A stretch of DNA of 37,530 nt from a virus, in IMG/VR virus record IMGVR_UViG_3300044627_001483, positions 1-37,530 of that record, one strand, 5' to 3'. Made by a program: the position numbers and the translations under genes. The notes beneath the pieces are model-generated. The model saw only the letters and a program-made list of their open reading frames with translations. It had not been told where the DNA came from and did no database searches. Shown piece by piece: positions 350 to 36,706 of the stretch; the stretch's first letter is position 1; every line of letters starts with the position of its first letter.

Positions 350-919
350 ATGGATGTGAAAAAACCAAAAAAAAAGAAAAAAGCATCCGATGCTGATTAT
401 GTAAGTAATCAAGATTTACTTGATTCATTAATAGATTACAAGAAGAAAAAAGATGAAGCAGAAGATGCTGGCCGTAAAAAGCCAAAACTTCCAGACTTCA
501 TTGGCGAGTGCATTCTTAAGATTGCATCTCGCCTTTCTTATAGGCCAAACTTTGCAAATTATCCATACAGAGAAGAGATGGTATCGGATGCAGTATTAAA
601 TTGCATAACATACATCGACAACTTTGACCCCGGTAAATCCAGCAGCCCCTTTGGTTATTTGACCCAAATCTGCTGGTTTTCTTTTGTAAGAATAATAAAC
701 AAAGAGAAGCGTGAAAAGTATACTCAATATAAGTTTGCTGAACAACAAAACGATAAAGACTTCCACGCATGGTTCAATGAAACTTATGCTGGGGTTGATA
801 TCGGACGTAGAGACTTCTTTGGGTTAACTGATCTTGATATGGAACGATTTGATGATATGCTTGGCTCAAAGAAGACAAAAAGAACACGTAAATCAAAAAA
901 ACAAGGACTGGACATATAA
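350..919 (+). CDS. 55: Late-transcription sigma factor, T4 gp55 homologue
   Basis: This is a 189-residue protein that aligns along its length with T4 gp55 (185 aa), the sigma-family factor that directs host RNA polymerase to late promoters. Conserved stretches are [18 protein letters not shown] near the N-terminus and, at about residues 75-125, the region-2-like core ([33 protein letters not shown]). In T4 the C-terminus of gp55 binds the sliding clamp. Here the C-terminus is a lysine-rich linker ending KKQGLDI, which could be a short clamp-binding peptide (inference). The N-terminus also carries a run of lysines. The ATG at 350 touches the -10 box of the candidate promoter, so an in-frame GTG at 356 is a possible true start. 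The gene's presence agrees with the many CTAAATA/TATAAATA motifs found here. Confidence 0.92.
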
Positions 920-10510: not shown

Positions 10511-11622
10511 TGTTTATTTTAAATTATAATCCAAAAATTCACGATATATTTTTATATGACGAAACTAATTCAGGGTATCCAGTTGGATTGAATCCAGACC
10601 ATCCATTATATGGTTATAAAAAATCTTTAATGGCTATTGGTGCAAGAAGCAGAACATACTCGGAATATCAAAAAAATCCAGATTATCCAAACGGTCCACC
10701 TGCAGGGACTTCTTTAAAACAGTATCCAAATTATTATAACAATAATCAAGTTTTATCTTGGTGGATAAGTGAGGATACTTTAGGATCGTCTGTTCATTAT
10801 ACTCCAACAAAACCATCAGATAGCCCACAAACTCCACCAGTAAGCAAAAAAACTACATTACAAGATTCAAGAACATTAAAATTTTGGGAAAATTTAAATT
10901 TTTCTTCTTTTGAAGATTATACAAATTTTTATAATATATACACACACGTTCCTTCAAATTTAGTAAGAACTACAAATATTGATTCTAGATATTTTTCAGG
11001 ATCACCAGAGATACCGGGATTTGCTACAGGATCAACTTTTTATCAAGTTTCAAATAAGGATTATGGTTTCTTACATTTAATTTCTGGTGCTTATAAAAAT
11101 ACAAATTATTTAAAAACTATTTCTTTAGCAAGTTTAATGAGATCAAAGGGAATAAATATAAAATTAGAGACCGAATATTATTTGTATAATGATTGTTATC
11201 TTTGGGATGGTCAAGACAGAGTAATACCTGTATCTTTAAAAATTTTATTTGATGGTGATTATTTAACACAAACTGTAATTGTCTTTAGTGATGTAATTCA
11301 AAAAGTATGGGATGGAGATTCGTCTGGACTGCTTTTATATGCTGATGGAAATGATCTATTTTCGATAGGACATATTTTATCATTTTCAGTTGAAAACGGA
11401 AATATAATTGTTAATTGTGTATTACACAACAATGAAAAATATCCAGTTTTAAATTATCTTGTAAATAATAATTTAGTTGGATCAAATTATATTGTATCCA
11501 AATCTACAGAAACTGTAGGTGCATCTTCTGGTGGGATCACCGCATTGAATATATCTTTATCAAATGCTCTCACCATTGCTAATGATAAATTGGCTGAATT
11601 GATTGCTACCCCACCAATATAA
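10510..11622 (+). CDS. Virion-associated protein of unknown function
   Basis: This 370-residue protein is acidic to neutral and rich in Asn, Tyr and Ser, with no signal peptide, membrane segment or recognised catalytic motif. The first 120 residues contain many Pro, Tyr and Asn residues (NPDHPLYGYKKS, DYPNGPPAGTS, QYPNYYNNNQ). The middle (about 125-330) is probably beta-rich and could be a carbohydrate-binding jelly roll (TTNIDSRYFSGSPEIPGFA, then VIPVSLKILFDGDYLTQTVIV). The C-terminus (SLSNALTIANDKLAELIAT) is helical. It is coupled to the collagen-like gene by TAATG and ends inside a late promoter. Its place in a fibre cluster is the only functional clue. Confidence 0.6.
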   Translation: MFILNYNPKIHDIFLYDETNSGYPVGLNPDHPLYGYKKSLMAIGARSRTYSEYQKNPDYPNGPPAGTSLKQYPNYYNNNQVLSWWISEDTLGSSVHYTPTKPSDSPQTPPVSKKTTLQDSRTLKFWENLNFSSFEDYTNFYNIYTHVPSNLVRTTNIDSRYFSGSPEIPGFATGSTFYQVSNKDYGFLHLISGAYKNTNYLKTISLASLMRSKGINIKLETEYYLYNDCYLWDGQDRVIPVSLKILFDGDYLTQTVIVFSDVIQKVWDGDSSGLLLYADGNDLFSIGHILSFSVENGNIIVNCVLHNNEKYPVLNYLVNNNLVGSNYIVSKSTETVGASSGGITALNISLSNALTIANDKLAELIATPPI

Positions 11623-11625
11623 ATA
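11618..11625 (+). promoter_or_regulatory. Late promoter TATAAATA
   Basis: This is a perfect match to the T4 late consensus. The TAA at 11620-11622 is also the stop codon of the gene before. With the last A at -6 the transcript starts at 11631, the A of the next ATG, and no Shine-Dalgarno sequence is present. Confidence 0.75.
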
Positions 11626-11630
11626 AATAT

Positions 11631-12128
11631 ATGAGTTACGCACAAGGACCAATACAACCAAGATTAAATGCTACAGTTGCTGCATTGCCGTATATTAATA
11701 CAACTGCAAATGGAACGACATGTGCTTTAGGAGCATATGAAATTTCTATGTCGGCGCCTTATGCTATATTTGGCTTAACTGCAGATTCTTTCTGCAAATT
11801 ATATGCAACAAATTATTTTGGTACACAAGCACTACAAGCAAAAAATACTATTTCAGGATTTTATCCAGACTTTTATATTGCATCTCCAACAGAAGTCAGA
11901 AGTACTTGGACATCATTTAATAATATTACTTTATCTGGTAGCTCAGATGTAAAATATGAAGTTATATATGTCTTTTATACTAGCGTTACGGCAAATCTTG
12001 ATATTGATGGACAACCAGTTGAAACAAATGTTGTTACTGATGCACAATTAAAAATTGAAATAAAGAGTGGCGGAGATATTGTTGCTGGAGTCGGATATTA
12101 TAGAAAATTAGGAAACATTATTACATAA
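11631..12128 (+). CDS. Virion-type protein of unknown function
   Basis: This 165-residue protein has no recognised catalytic motif. The composition is rich in Ala, Thr, Tyr and Asn with beta-prone segments ([40 protein letters not shown]). It lies between two fibre genes, has its own perfect late promoter and ends one base before the collagen-like fibre gene, so it is probably a virion or fibre-attachment protein. It does not resemble its neighbours closely enough to be a duplicated module. No function is assigned. Confidence 0.6.
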
Positions 12129-24408: not shown

Positions 24409-24415
24409 TATTTAG
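24409..24415 (-). promoter_or_regulatory. Late promoter motif CTAAATA (minus strand)
   Basis: The motif overlaps the stop codon of the lipoprotein gene (24412-24414). It drives the PEP-CTERM pair through a leader of about 60 bases, the longest non-coding leader in the window, ending in AAGGAC before ATG 24346. Confidence 0.65.
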
Positions 24416-24714
24416 GTTTGTGTCTTTTCTTCCTGAATTACTGGGACTTCCTTTGCGGGAGTTCCGGGTTCTGCTTCGATGCAGTTTACAGGCTTTAGAA
24501 CGAATGTTCTGACACCCCACATAAGAGCAATTACTGCAACTGGTCCGTACCAGAAGAGCCAACCATAAGATTCGATTTGTGCTCCGGGTTCTGCAATTTT
24601 ATCCTTTAGTGCCATCATTACAACATTGTCTGATGTATGATCTGGGATGATGACTGGATCAGAGCTGCAGCCAGCGAGAAGAATCATTGAAATTAGAAAT
24701 AGAAATAGTCTCAT
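24412..24714 (-). CDS. Small lipoprotein with one membrane segment
   Basis: This 100-residue protein begins with a lipoprotein signal (MRLFLFLISMILLAGCSS, with a clear LAGC lipobox). It then has an outward segment and a second hydrophobic span (GWLFWYGPVAVIALMWGVRT), ending in a Pro/Glu-rich tail (EPGTPAKEVPVIQEEKTQT). Its position beside a holin-like gene suggests an envelope or lysis role such as a spanin-like partner, but lipid-anchored spanins normally lack the second span, so this is only a possibility. AAGGAG precedes the ATG. It is probably co-transcribed with the two genes to its right from the late promoter at 25788-25795. Confidence 0.65.
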   Translation of the reverse strand: MRLFLFLISMILLAGCSSDPVIIPDHTSDNVVMMALKDKIAEPGAQIESYGWLFWYGPVAVIALMWGVRTFVLKPVNCIEAEPGTPAKEVPVIQEEKTQT

Positions 24715-24724
24715 GGTTCACTCC

Positions 24725-25162
24725 TTATGATTTATTGTTGGCTGCTGCGGAGCCAAAGTAGAATCCTACGATGCTTAGAAGAACTTCACGGTTCTCTGAT
24801 GTCCAGAAGAATCCATTAATTTCTACGAATGCTTTCTTTGCAGATGCTGGGATCAAACCAAACAATGCTTCTGAATTTTTGACATCAACTTCTACGAAAG
24901 TAGGAACGCCAAAGAAGGGAAGAATGAAAGGTGCTGCGAAAGCTCCGAATAGAACGACGAGTACGATGATTTGACGAACAACTCTGCCTGCATCAAGGGG
25001 AACTCTTTGAGCTGCTTGATTTTGATTTTCAGTTGTTTGTTTGTTTGCTTGGATGAGCCGTTCGAACATTTCCTTTTGATCTTGGCTCTTTTGTGCCATA
25101 TAACGAAAAAGAAATCCCGTTGCCCCACCACCTACCATGCTAATCAATTCTGGTGAAAACAT
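24725..25162 (-). CDS. Holin-like membrane protein
   Basis: The protein is 145 residues. An N-terminal amphipathic segment (MFSPELISMVGGGATGFLFR) is followed by a charged helix (QKSQDQKEMFERLIQANKQT), a strong membrane span (IIVLVVLFGAFAAPFILPFF) and a final hydrophobic helix ending VGFYFGSAAANNKS. The charge pattern and the FYFGSAA ending resemble phage holin-type and inner-membrane proteins, but this is based on layout only. GAGG lies nine bases before the ATG. A lysis function would fit its late minus-strand operon with a lipoprotein. No endolysin is visible in the window, so the lysis assignment is open. Confidence 0.55.
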   Translation of the reverse strand: MFSPELISMVGGGATGFLFRYMAQKSQDQKEMFERLIQANKQTTENQNQAAQRVPLDAGRVVRQIIVLVVLFGAFAAPFILPFFGVPTFVEVDVKNSEALFGLIPASAKKAFVEINGFFWTSENREVLLSIVGFYFGSAAANNKS

Positions 25163-33395: not shown

Positions 33396-35285
33396 ATGGC
33401 AGAAAATTTATCACCATTTCAATCGTTTATTTTTATCTCGCGCTATTCTCGCTGGCTACCAGAGAAGAATCGTCGTGAGACATGGGATGAGTGTGTAGAT
33501 CGTTGGTGGAATTATTTCACTGGCAAGGTTCCTCAATTGCTTGAGCGCCCAGACGTGAAGGAAGCAATTTTAAATCTAGAAGTTCTTCCTTCTATGCGTA
33601 GTCTTATGACTGCTGGTCCTGCTCTAGACCATGATAACACTTGCTTGTACAATTGTTCTTATCTACCGATTGATTCTATCCAATCATTTGCAGAGTTGTT
33701 TGTTGTATTGATGAACGGAACCGGCGTTGGCTATTCTGTTGAACATCAATACACTGATAAACTTCCAACAGTTGCAAACAAGATTGAAAAAGAATTCAAC
33801 ATCACTTATGTTGTTGAAGATTCAAAGGAAGGGTGGGGCAACGCAATCAAGTTCATTATCGAACACTTGTATGCAGGTCGTCATGTAAAGTGGGATCTAA
33901 GCAAGATTCGTCCTGCTGGTGCAAGACTCAAGACCTTTGGTGGTCGTGCAAGTGGTCCTGCTCCTCTTGACAACCTATTCAAGTTTGCTGTCAAGTTGTT
34001 CTACAATGCACAAGGCCGTAGACTAACTGCCCTTGAATGCCATGATCTCTGCTGTGCCATTGCTAACGCAGTAATCGTCGGTGGTGTTCGTCGTTCTGCT
34101 ATGATCTCGTTGAGCGATCTATCTGATCGTGAGATGGCTCTATGCAAGAGCGGTGCATGGTGGGAGCAGGCTGGCTTCCGTTCATACGCCAACAACTCTG
34201 CTGTCTATCGTGGCCGTCCTCCAATGGGCCAGTTCCTAGAGGAATGGACTTCGCTATACAACAGCCACAGCGGTGAGCGTGGAATGATCAATCGTAATGC
34301 TTTGCAAGCACAGGCTGCTATGTGGGGTCGTGATGTAAACTGTGAGTATGGAACAAACCCATGCTCAGAGATCATTCTGAAGCCATTTGAGTTCTGCAAT
34401 CTTTCAACTGTTGTTGTTCGCCCCGATGACACTCAGGCAACATTGAAGAGAAAGATTGAGATTGCAACAATCATTGGAACAGTTCAATCAACATTTACAA
34501 ACTTCCCATACCTTCGTGAAGATTGGAAGAAGAACTGTGAAGATGAAAGGTTGCTAGGTGTTAGCATGACAGGAATTTTTGATAATAAACTCACCAGCGG
34601 GCTTGAAGGTAAGCCAAAACTCGTGAGATTGCTTGAGACACTTCGTGACCATGCTACGGCCACGAATCTCAAGTGGGCAGATAAGTTGGGGATTGGCCCC
34701 AGCAAATCGATTACATGCGTGAAGCCCGAAGGCACTACATCGTGTTTGGTGGACTCTGCCTCCGGTCTCCATCCTCGCTATGCGGAATATTATTTCCGTA
34801 GAATTCGTTTGGACAAGAAAGATCCTCTATATGAACTCATGAAGGATCAAGGCGTCCCGTGTGAAGATGATGTAATCAACCCAACTTCTACTGCCGTCTT
34901 TACATTTGCGATGAAGGCTCCAAAGGGAACTATGACCACAGAGGAACTTCGCGCACTAGACCATCTTGATTTGTGGAAGACTTATCAAGAACATTACTGC
35001 CACCACAAGCCATCGATTACCGTTAACTATAGGGATTCTGAATTCCTTGAAGTAGGTAACTGGCTATGGGAAAACTTTGATATCGCAACCGGTATCTCTT
35101 TCCTTCCCGGTGGGGACAGCCACACTTATGCTCAGGCCCCCTTCGAGCAGATTGATTCAGCAACCTATACGGCACACCCCAAGGTTAAAGTTAACTTTGG
35201 TAATCTGTCGAAATACGAGGCTGAGGACAATACTGAATCGGCAAGAGAGTATGCCTGCAGCGCTGGCGGTTGCCAGATAGTGTGA
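33396..35285 (+). CDS. nrdJ: Class II (adenosylcobalamin-dependent) ribonucleoside-triphosphate reductase
   Basis: This 629-residue protein is of the monomeric RtpR type (Lactobacillus enzyme 739 aa). It reduces ribonucleotides using a B12-derived radical, with no separate small subunit. N321-P-C323-S-E325 holds the radical cysteine and its partners. C334 lies 11 residues later, the spacing found in RtpR (C408/C419). The N-terminal redox partner is C83 or C87. The C-terminal shuttle pair is C621 and C626 (ACSAGGCQIV). SHSGERGMINRNA is also conserved. The start has TAGGAG eight bases upstream. It requires host cobalamin. A strong terminator follows it 25 bases after the stop. Confidence 0.93.
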   Translation: MAENLSPFQSFIFISRYSRWLPEKNRRETWDECVDRWWNYFTGKVPQLLERPDVKEAILNLEVLPSMRSLMTAGPALDHDNTCLYNCSYLPIDSIQSFAELFVVLMNGTGVGYSVEHQYTDKLPTVANKIEKEFNITYVVEDSKEGWGNAIKFIIEHLYAGRHVKWDLSKIRPAGARLKTFGGRASGPAPLDNLFKFAVKLFYNAQGRRLTALECHDLCCAIANAVIVGGVRRSAMISLSDLSDREMALCKSGAWWEQAGFRSYANNSAVYRGRPPMGQFLEEWTSLYNSHSGERGMINRNALQAQAAMWGRDVNCEYGTNPCSEIILKPFEFCNLSTVVVRPDDTQATLKRKIEIATIIGTVQSTFTNFPYLREDWKKNCEDERLLGVSMTGIFDNKLTSGLEGKPKLVRLLETLRDHATATNLKWADKLGIGPSKSITCVKPEGTTSCLVDSASGLHPRYAEYYFRRIRLDKKDPLYELMKDQGVPCEDDVINPTSTAVFTFAMKAPKGTMTTEELRALDHLDLWKTYQEHYCHHKPSITVNYRDSEFLEVGNWLWENFDIATGISFLPGGDSHTYAQAPFEQIDSATYTAHPKVKVNFGNLSKYEAEDNTESAREYACSAGGCQIV

Positions 35286-35310: not shown

Positions 35311-35331
35311 ACCCCCGAAAGGGGGTTTTTT
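35311..35331 (+). terminator. Rho-independent terminator after nrdJ
   Basis: The hairpin is CCCCC (35312-35316), GAAA loop, GGGGG (35321-35325), followed by six T. This is the only clear intrinsic terminator in the window. It closes the replication and nucleotide block and insulates the late-type protease gene. Confidence 0.9.
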
Positions 35332-35333
35332 AT

Positions 35334-35341
35334 TATAAATA
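35334..35341 (+). promoter_or_regulatory. Late promoter TATAAATA of the protease gene
   Basis: A perfect late consensus lies immediately after the terminator T-run, nine bases before ATG 35351. The predicted start is 35347, giving a leader of only four bases. Confidence 0.75.
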
Positions 35342-35350
35342 TTTTTGGCC

Positions 35351-36142
35351 ATGAGTTTGAGGGCATCAATCCTCGCTCTAATATTGGCGACAAGCACCGC
35401 TTGCAATTCGCTATCTTCACCCCAAAATAAAGTTGAAGAACCGGAAAAAACACAAGGAGTGGCGGGAGTCCCTGCGTTTCTTTTGGACTCATCGAAGTAC
35501 GACTCCATAAAGTCCGCAGAGGACGACCGCTACTCCTGTGTAGGTGCTTTGGTTACACCTAGTGCTAAGATCATAGGTTCTGCTGTGTTAATTCACCCCA
35601 GAGCAATATTGACTGCACAACATTGTTTTGCATTGGCAGAAGAAAAGGCCGAATTTTACATGTCGGCGTCTGGCCAATTGATAAAGATTGTAAAAGTCTT
35701 CTTGAAAGAACCATACACTACAATTCTTCCTTGGAATGATATTGCACTTTGCATTCTTGAGGAAGATTGCTACGATCCTCCTTGCGAAATAATGAAAGAA
35801 CACTCCGATCTTACTATGGGAGAAAAACTCACAACTGTTGGTTGGAGTCTTGGATACAAGAAAGTAAGTGAACCTGGAGTAATGAAATATTACGGTACTC
35901 TATTAGAGGATCGTGGGTTGGTTATGAGAATGCTGGCGTCAAGGGGTTCAGTATATTATGGAGATTCTGGTGGTGGAGTATTTGAGGATACTGGAAAGTT
36001 GGCTGGCATAATAAATTTCTTTAGACTAGAAGAAGAAACTAATGAAATTGTAGATAATGGTGCTGCCAGAGTAGATGTGCAATATAAATGGATTGACAGC
36101 ATTTTATCTCGGGAAGTTTGTAACTGGCCATGGTTTGAATAA
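35351..36142 (+). CDS. Secreted trypsin-like serine protease (S1 fold)
   Basis: The protein is 263 residues from ATG 35351; a TTG at 35345 only adds two residues. The N-terminal hydrophobic stretch RASILALILATSTACN is a Sec signal, possibly with lipid attachment at C18, although serine rather than leucine at -3 is unusual for a lipobox. The catalytic triad is visible: H91 in LTAQHC, D130 in NDIALCIL and S206 in YGDSGGG. Several cysteines (C63, C92, C134, C140, C145) may form disulphides, fitting export. Trypsin-fold proteases are rare in T4-like phages. Its late promoter suggests it works at the host surface or envelope, or during particle maturation. The target is unknown. Confidence 0.85.
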   Translation: MSLRASILALILATSTACNSLSSPQNKVEEPEKTQGVAGVPAFLLDSSKYDSIKSAEDDRYSCVGALVTPSAKIIGSAVLIHPRAILTAQHCFALAEEKAEFYMSASGQLIKIVKVFLKEPYTTILPWNDIALCILEEDCYDPPCEIMKEHSDLTMGEKLTTVGWSLGYKKVSEPGVMKYYGTLLEDRGLVMRMLASRGSVYYGDSGGGVFEDTGKLAGIINFFRLEEETNEIVDNGAARVDVQYKWIDSILSREVCNWPWFE

Positions 36143-36157: not shown

Positions 36158-36706
36158 ATGTTTTATATGCTAGTAGGAATTGATTACTCTATAACCAGCC
36201 CGGCTATTTGTTTGTTTGATGAAAAACGGGACTTCTGTTTTCAGAACTGCTCTTTTTACTTTTTGACAAACACTAAGAAATACGCAACAAAAATTGCACC
36301 TAATATAAATGGTGAAAGTTTTGAAGAGTATGCTTATGATACTGAAAGATTTGATACCATATCAGAATGGGCTACCAATCTTTGTGTTGGTGCAGCGGAT
36401 GTTGCAATTGAAGGATACGCATATGGAGCACATGGCAGAATTTTTAATCTTGCTGAAAACTGCGGTATTCTCAAGTATAAGCTCCATAAGCTCGCGGTTC
36501 CGGTAACCATCGTAGAGCCATCCAAGGTAAAGAAGCTCGCTACAGGCAAAGGAAATGCCGATAAACAGGCAATGTATGAGGCTTTCACCAAAGAAACAAA
36601 GACTGATTTGTTATCAGTCTTTGATCAAAAAACTTTGAGTAATCCTGTAACTGACGTGATAGACAGTTATTATATTTTGAAGGCTTTGTTAGCCACCAAA
36701 AATTAA
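36158..36706 (+). CDS. RuvC-like Holliday-junction nuclease
   Basis: This 182-residue RNase-H-fold protein has the phage RuvC-like pattern: first aspartate in LVGIDYSITSPAI, the glutamate in VAIEGYAYGAHGR, the lysine-rich VEPSKVKKLATGKGNADKQA and the last acidic residues in VTDVIDSYYI. Such enzymes cut DNA junctions and could stand in for T4 endonuclease VII (gp49), which was not seen here. AGAGG lies only two bases before ATG 36158 but 11 before ATG 36167, so translation may start at 36167 (MLVGIDYS). It is convergent with the FmdB-type gene, sharing TTAA at 36703-36706. Confidence 0.8.
   Translation: MFYMLVGIDYSITSPAICLFDEKRDFCFQNCSFYFLTNTKKYATKIAPNINGESFEEYAYDTERFDTISEWATNLCVGAADVAIEGYAYGAHGRIFNLAENCGILKYKLHKLAVPVTIVEPSKVKKLATGKGNADKQAMYEAFTKETKTDLLSVFDQKTLSNPVTDVIDSYYILKALLATKN

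Follow-up and report, generated by a model that had tools for sequence, protein, structure and literature searches.

Accessory proteases and lipoproteins of phages are known separately, but their combination, a predicted lipid-anchored protease of chymotrypsin fold as optional late cargo, is one that we did not find described in the open-licence literature. Similarly, our search for reports of phage lipoproteins that have S1 protease activity, which was limited to open-licence papers and incomplete, returned none, and phage-encoded exported proteases have barely been studied. The Rhizobium phages RHph_N3_19 (QIG73066.1) and RHph_TM3_3_14B (QIG68660.1) have annotated trypsin-like proteins of S1 type whose N-termini look like signal or transmembrane segments, and we found no characterization of either in the literature. 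A trypsin-like serine protease has also been ascribed to a cluster of alphaproteobacterial T4-like phages (PMC10783043). Of the phage lipoproteins, T5 Llp and the T1-type Cor are small proteins of the host envelope that inactivate receptors; they are receptor binders that lack an enzyme domain (PMC9586334). Exclusion proteins, which are often expressed early, reduce the number of phages lost by adsorbing unproductively to cells already infected or to fragments (PMC9586334). A further point of comparison is the internal proteins of T4, which are diverse and have only their capsid-targeting sequence in common (PMC3012670).

The open reading frame described here, at 35351-36142, is a real, conserved and unusual phage gene, and we assign a probability of about 0.5 to the reading that it is optional late cargo whose product, a lipid-anchored protease, cleaves proteins of the host envelope as infection ends. 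It lies in a 37.5-kb stretch of viral DNA (the window, meaning the whole of the DNA analysed), which comes from an uncultivated phage of the T4 superfamily. The window has genes for a gp55 late sigma factor, SbcCD-like nuclease subunits, sliding clamp, clamp loader, DNA polymerase, UvsX, helicase, primase, thymidylate synthase and ribonucleotide reductase. The best GenBank relatives of its polymerase are from Synechococcus phages, at about 43% identity, and no close cultured relative was found in that comparison. The gene and its surroundings are laid out as follows.

350..919, + strand: gp55-type late sigma factor, which would read the late box (phrog_234, 2.1e-50)
33396..35285, + strand: class II ribonucleotide reductase (nrd), left flank of the slot (phrog_367, 2.3e-170; cobalamin-dependent relatives)
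35312..35331, + strand: intrinsic terminator CCCCC-GAAA-GGGGG + T6, 3' of the nrd gene (fold -15.6 kcal/mol, z -2.2)
35334..35341, + strand: T4-type late promoter box TATAAATA (same place in relatives; enriched before genes)
35347, + strand: predicted transcription start with a 4-nt leader (inferred by the T4 rule, PMC1524935)
35351..36142, + strand: protease gene, 263 aa and stop (open reading frame, Pfam match, AF2 model, structural alignment)
36158..36706, + strand: RuvC-like resolvase, right flank of the slot (phrog_159, 2.6e-29)

The 263-residue protein matches Pfam Trypsin (PF00089, 1.2e-11) and Trypsin_2 (3e-10), each beyond its own cut-off, as well as PHROG 9683 'protease' (4.5e-10), and it has the His-Asp-Ser order and the HC and GDSGG motifs of peptidase family S1. 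The parts of the protein are these.

35351..35401, + strand: export signal, residues 1-17 (R4 and hydrophobic stretch; conserved in the family)
35402..35404, + strand: Cys18, predicted lipidation site (invariant; lipobox-like site)
35405..35470, + strand: polar linker, residues 19-40 (hydrophilic, variable)
35471..36139, + strand: chymotrypsin-fold catalytic domain, residues 41-263
35621..35623, + strand: catalytic His91 (TAQHC), invariant in the aligned family
35738..35740, + strand: catalytic Asp130 (NDIAL), invariant in the aligned family
35948..35950, + strand: Ser200, at the position of trypsin Asp189 in the specificity pocket (six residues before Ser206; invariant)
35966..35968, + strand: catalytic Ser206 (GDSGG), invariant in the aligned family

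A previous reading of the letters (the sequence-only reading) had described the product as a secreted, trypsin-like protease with an intact triad at H91, D130 and S206. The triad was placed correctly, and its residues are common to all aligned family members, as are Cys63, Cys92, Cys134, Cys140 and D205, the equivalent of Asp194 in vertebrate-type S1A enzymes, whose zymogens are activated through a new N-terminus at residue 16. The fold was also borne out by the structure prediction and S1 family comparison suggested at that time. AF2 given the mature domain with 29 sequences produced a usable model of fair confidence (pLDDT 79, pTM 0.82) with the chymotrypsin fold, a double beta-barrel, whereas the full protein with 17 sequences gave a useless one (pLDDT 33). 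With the mature-domain model, the top Foldseek match was to the chymotrypsin fold (E 2.7e-10), and VIA-align to complement factor D gave Z 23.2 and rmsd 2.3 over 193 residues; elastases and many further S1A enzymes scored equally well. The protein also has a profile alignment to neutrophil elastase. The phage protease thus has the same fold as S1A peptidases such as complement factor D, the elastases and Saccharopolyspora erythraea trypsin (Z about 22-23 over about 190 residues), along with their motifs and order of catalytic residues, but identity in the structural alignments is about 15-22%, Asp189, Cys42 and Cys191 are missing, and the protein is phage-encoded and has a lipobox-like N-terminus. 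As for the vertebrate-type Cys42-Cys58 and Cys191-Cys220 disulfides, Cys92 (58) is present and the family alignment has no Cys at 42 or 191.

The term "trypsin-like" therefore stands for the fold (Z about 23) and fails for the specificity, since Asp189 is replaced by Ser in all members and trypsin-type specificity was rejected. Counting residues from Ser206, together with the profile alignment of the protein to neutrophil elastase, places Val or Ile at position 190 and Phe, Met or Leu at position 216; in such a pocket, with Ser200 in place of Asp189, a preference for Arg or Lys would be unexpected, and one like that of elastase or chymotrypsin is no more than a guess. Three other assignments were rejected: an HtrA/DegP (S1C) protein, as there is no PDZ domain and the only Pfam matches of the 263 residues are Trypsin and Trypsin_2; a relative of the prophage-borne S1 staphylococcal exfoliative toxins, for which the best tblastn match had E 0.7 at 26% identity and only the fold is in common by Foldseek; and a prohead protease, based on the S1 fold and the export signal.

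The N-terminus reads M-S-L-R-A, followed by a hydrophobic stretch (mean hydropathy about 2.2) and by L-A-T-S-T-A-C18-N; that is, the window protein has the positive n-region, hydrophobic h-region and lipobox Cys of a lipoprotein, with an atypical residue at -3. Cys18 is kept in every aligned member that reaches this position, and 26 of the 33 distinct family N-termini with upstream sequence, the window protein's included, have the PS51257-type lipoprotein pattern. The lipobox is not classical, as -3 is Ser or Cys and not Leu, and the remaining seven N-termini miss the strict pattern through Cys at -3 or Asn at -2. For these two reasons signal peptidase I might instead cut after Ala17 and leave a free enzyme in the periplasm or medium, and the S-T-A, C-S-A or S-N-A before Cys18 does supply the small -3 and -1 residues which that peptidase prefers. 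Such cleavage, however, would leave an invariant Cys at +1 unexplained, and we consider a free enzyme improbable and a tethered lipoprotein more likely. Of the earlier description as "secreted", the conserved export segment holds, while the enzyme is probably lipid-anchored in the envelope rather than free. In E. coli, Asn at +2 sorts a lipoprotein to the outer membrane; under that rule, with Asn rather than Asp at residue 19, the protease would probably be anchored there. The sequence-only reading had further contrasted the protein with phage proteases as usually lacking export signals. This contrast is a poor one, as the two annotated Rhizobium phage proteins also begin with signal- or transmembrane-like segments; they differ from the present family in that similarity is barely detectable (tblastn E 0.3-0.5), there is no lipobox and the neighbours are others.

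The previously noted late promoter box just past a terminator was confirmed, with TATAAATA at 35334-35341 directly following the CCCCC-GAAA-GGGGG-T6 hairpin. In the relatives a hairpin is retained at the place of the terminator though its letters differ, and TATAAATA or the variant TCTAAATA is found at the equivalent place upstream of the protease. Late boxes lie at -13 to -6 in T4 (PMC1524935), and known forms are TATAAATA in T4 and NATAAATA in cyanophages (PMC2984593), along with CTAAATA in Aeh1 (PMC1524935). The window has 6 copies of the octamer where 2.9 are expected; as it is not rare there, it is weak evidence alone, and its support comes instead from placement relative to start codons: T[AC]TAAATA was found within 50 nt before starts 15 times in a related 137-kb contig (1.7 expected) and 5 times in the window (0.4 expected). 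The relatives at 54% identity have TATAAATA 8 nt before the ATG and no nrd or ruvC match in the fetched DNA, so the box accompanies the gene in another context too. With a late box upstream and gp55 in the genome, as for T4-type late genes, late transcription is predicted. Sequence, family conservation, modelled fold and promoter agree, and a late-expressed, exported, chymotrypsin-fold protease with an intact triad is well supported.

The late box is most often exactly 5 nt before the ATG (14 cases in the window and the related contig G001, loci L123-L129; for example window 11618-11631). By the T4 rule, transcription would then begin at the A of the AUG itself, and this phage group may have many leaderless late mRNAs.

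The protease is optional late cargo in a variable slot between nrd and ruvC. Among 67 RuvC-anchored loci with both flanks, in which forward ORFs of at least 100 aa were counted, the slot holds the protease in 14, other such ORFs in 32 and no such ORF in 21. On the tree of the flanking proteins, presence of the protease requires at least seven changes, at least four of them forced by well-supported branches, and locus L027, whose nrd gene is 99.3% identical to that of the window over 1,890 nt, has a slot of only 80 bp without the protease. The gene has therefore been gained and lost as an accessory, a feature that was not visible to the sequence-only reading. A role in maturing structural proteins of the virion, with which predicted late expression would be compatible, appears highly improbable, given that the protein has an N-terminal export signal and no capsid-targeting tag, and that it is absent from close relatives which presumably assemble the same virion.

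Other slot cargo has a late box for 21 of 36 distinct ORFs. Ten late cargo ORFs in the slots of sister phages (L004:3167, L008:6203, L011:6749, L014:4027, L041:2778, L042:3774, L043:5992, L054:7461, L076:2125 and L079:6985) have only the N-terminus M[LI][RSK]FK[QEK][FY][LI]xE in common; these proteins of 128-632 aa are mostly unrelated beyond the 10-residue tag, and each gene is preceded by a late box and frequently also by a hairpin. The tag resembles the T4 capsid-targeting sequence in kind, and the tagged proteins are candidate packaged and injected effectors. Like the slot cargo, the T4 internal proteins are optional, diverse, late and host-directed; the tags are on other slot genes, and the protease has an export signal in place of a capsid-targeting tag. 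The PurA-like (adenylosuccinate synthetase) slot proteins of L017:2721, L018:6849 and L021:6876, whose N-terminus was judged by eye, are without a late box.

This company of cargo bears on a counter-defence role, in which the exported protease would destroy a phage-sensing or phage-blocking protein of the host envelope, or a competitor's periplasmic protein, in hosts where these are present. Patchy presence beside other variable late cargo, some of it tagged in a way that recalls the T4 internal proteins that counter host defences, is consistent with such a role, but a late product would arrive after most defences have hit the first infecting phage, and we regard it as unlikely. The same tagged cargo fits a locus of host interaction, which accords with the reading we prefer, namely that the protease acts on the envelope of the host as infection ends. 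That reading is based on four features: the late timing, export that probably leads to membrane anchoring, an active site that is intact, and presence in only some of the phages.

In this mechanism RNA polymerase with gp55 would transcribe the gene from TATAAATA late in infection, and the product would be exported via Sec, cut at Cys18 and lipidated on that cysteine. Through a linker of about 22 residues the catalytic domain would stay attached to the envelope of the host, probably at the outer membrane, and as a chymotrypsin-fold endopeptidase it would cleave exposed host proteins of the envelope or surface. The envelope or receptor proteolysis and the help in release that had been suggested from the letters are plausible. 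The most attractive benefit would be the removal of receptors or surface proteins from the dying host and debris, such that progeny are released and not lost by re-adsorption; loosening of the envelope at lysis is a further possible benefit. We put forward shaving only tentatively; exclusion proteins are often expressed early, whereas the protease looks late. Its likeness to Llp and Cor, as a predicted small phage-encoded lipoprotein of the host envelope, is one of kind, and the window protein differs from them in carrying a protease; if the proposal is true, the surface would be closed by an enzyme rather than a plug.

The late box and the predicted envelope targeting would also suit a lysis helper, which would act beside holin, endolysin and spanin by cutting ties between outer membrane and cell wall or proteins that stabilize the envelope, and the related 137-kb contig has, besides the protease, only one strict-pattern lipoprotein. 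We think this doubtful, since lysis must be independent of a protease that is optional in very close relatives, the gene is flanked in the window by a reductase and a resolvase rather than by lysis genes, and a better candidate is found elsewhere in the window. This is a second, classical lipoprotein candidate of 100 aa with a later hydrophobic segment (MRLFLFLISMILLAGC|SSD; 24412-24714, - strand), directly after a hydrophobic protein (24725-25162, phrog_38283); the two are a possible lysis pair.

If our preferred reading of a tethered protease acting on the envelope at the end of infection is true, the phage would be remodelling the host envelope in a new way. The gene specifies a defined enzyme that can be tested against a clean control with a dead active site, and its slot serves as a ready-made inventory of the optional late genes carried by an uncultivated, T4-like group present in many metagenomes.

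Relatives of the protease were found in about 50 metagenomic viral contigs of IMG/VR at 54-100% identity (83% for L002, about 60-68% for most and 54% for L169-L171), a total that stayed at about 50 when the viral scans were repeated with more diverse alignments, and the family has retained the triad and the export segment, with either the late box itself or the variant TCTAAATA upstream. The proposed search of phage genomes for relatives thus succeeded in IMG/VR but not among 50,697 GenBank phages, where tblastn with the window protein returned nothing even at E 10 and a relative as query gave just weak, generic S1 matches. PHROG 9683 had no match in Sinorhizobium phage phiM12, which we take to be a member of the alphaproteobacterial T4-like cluster mentioned at the outset. 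Two motif-based scans of 84,980 prokaryote species (one genome each), with patterns that reach only fairly close kin, found no relative, and recent capture from a host was rejected to that extent; the family appears to be phage-only as far as searched. Values of dN/dS between relatives are 0.08-0.22 where measurable, so the protease is maintained by purifying selection. Between window 35351-35530 and L002:6001-6180, the first 60 codons, dS is 0.39, about threefold lower than the 1.29 of the rest of the gene, which may reflect either recombination near the 5' end or extra constraint.
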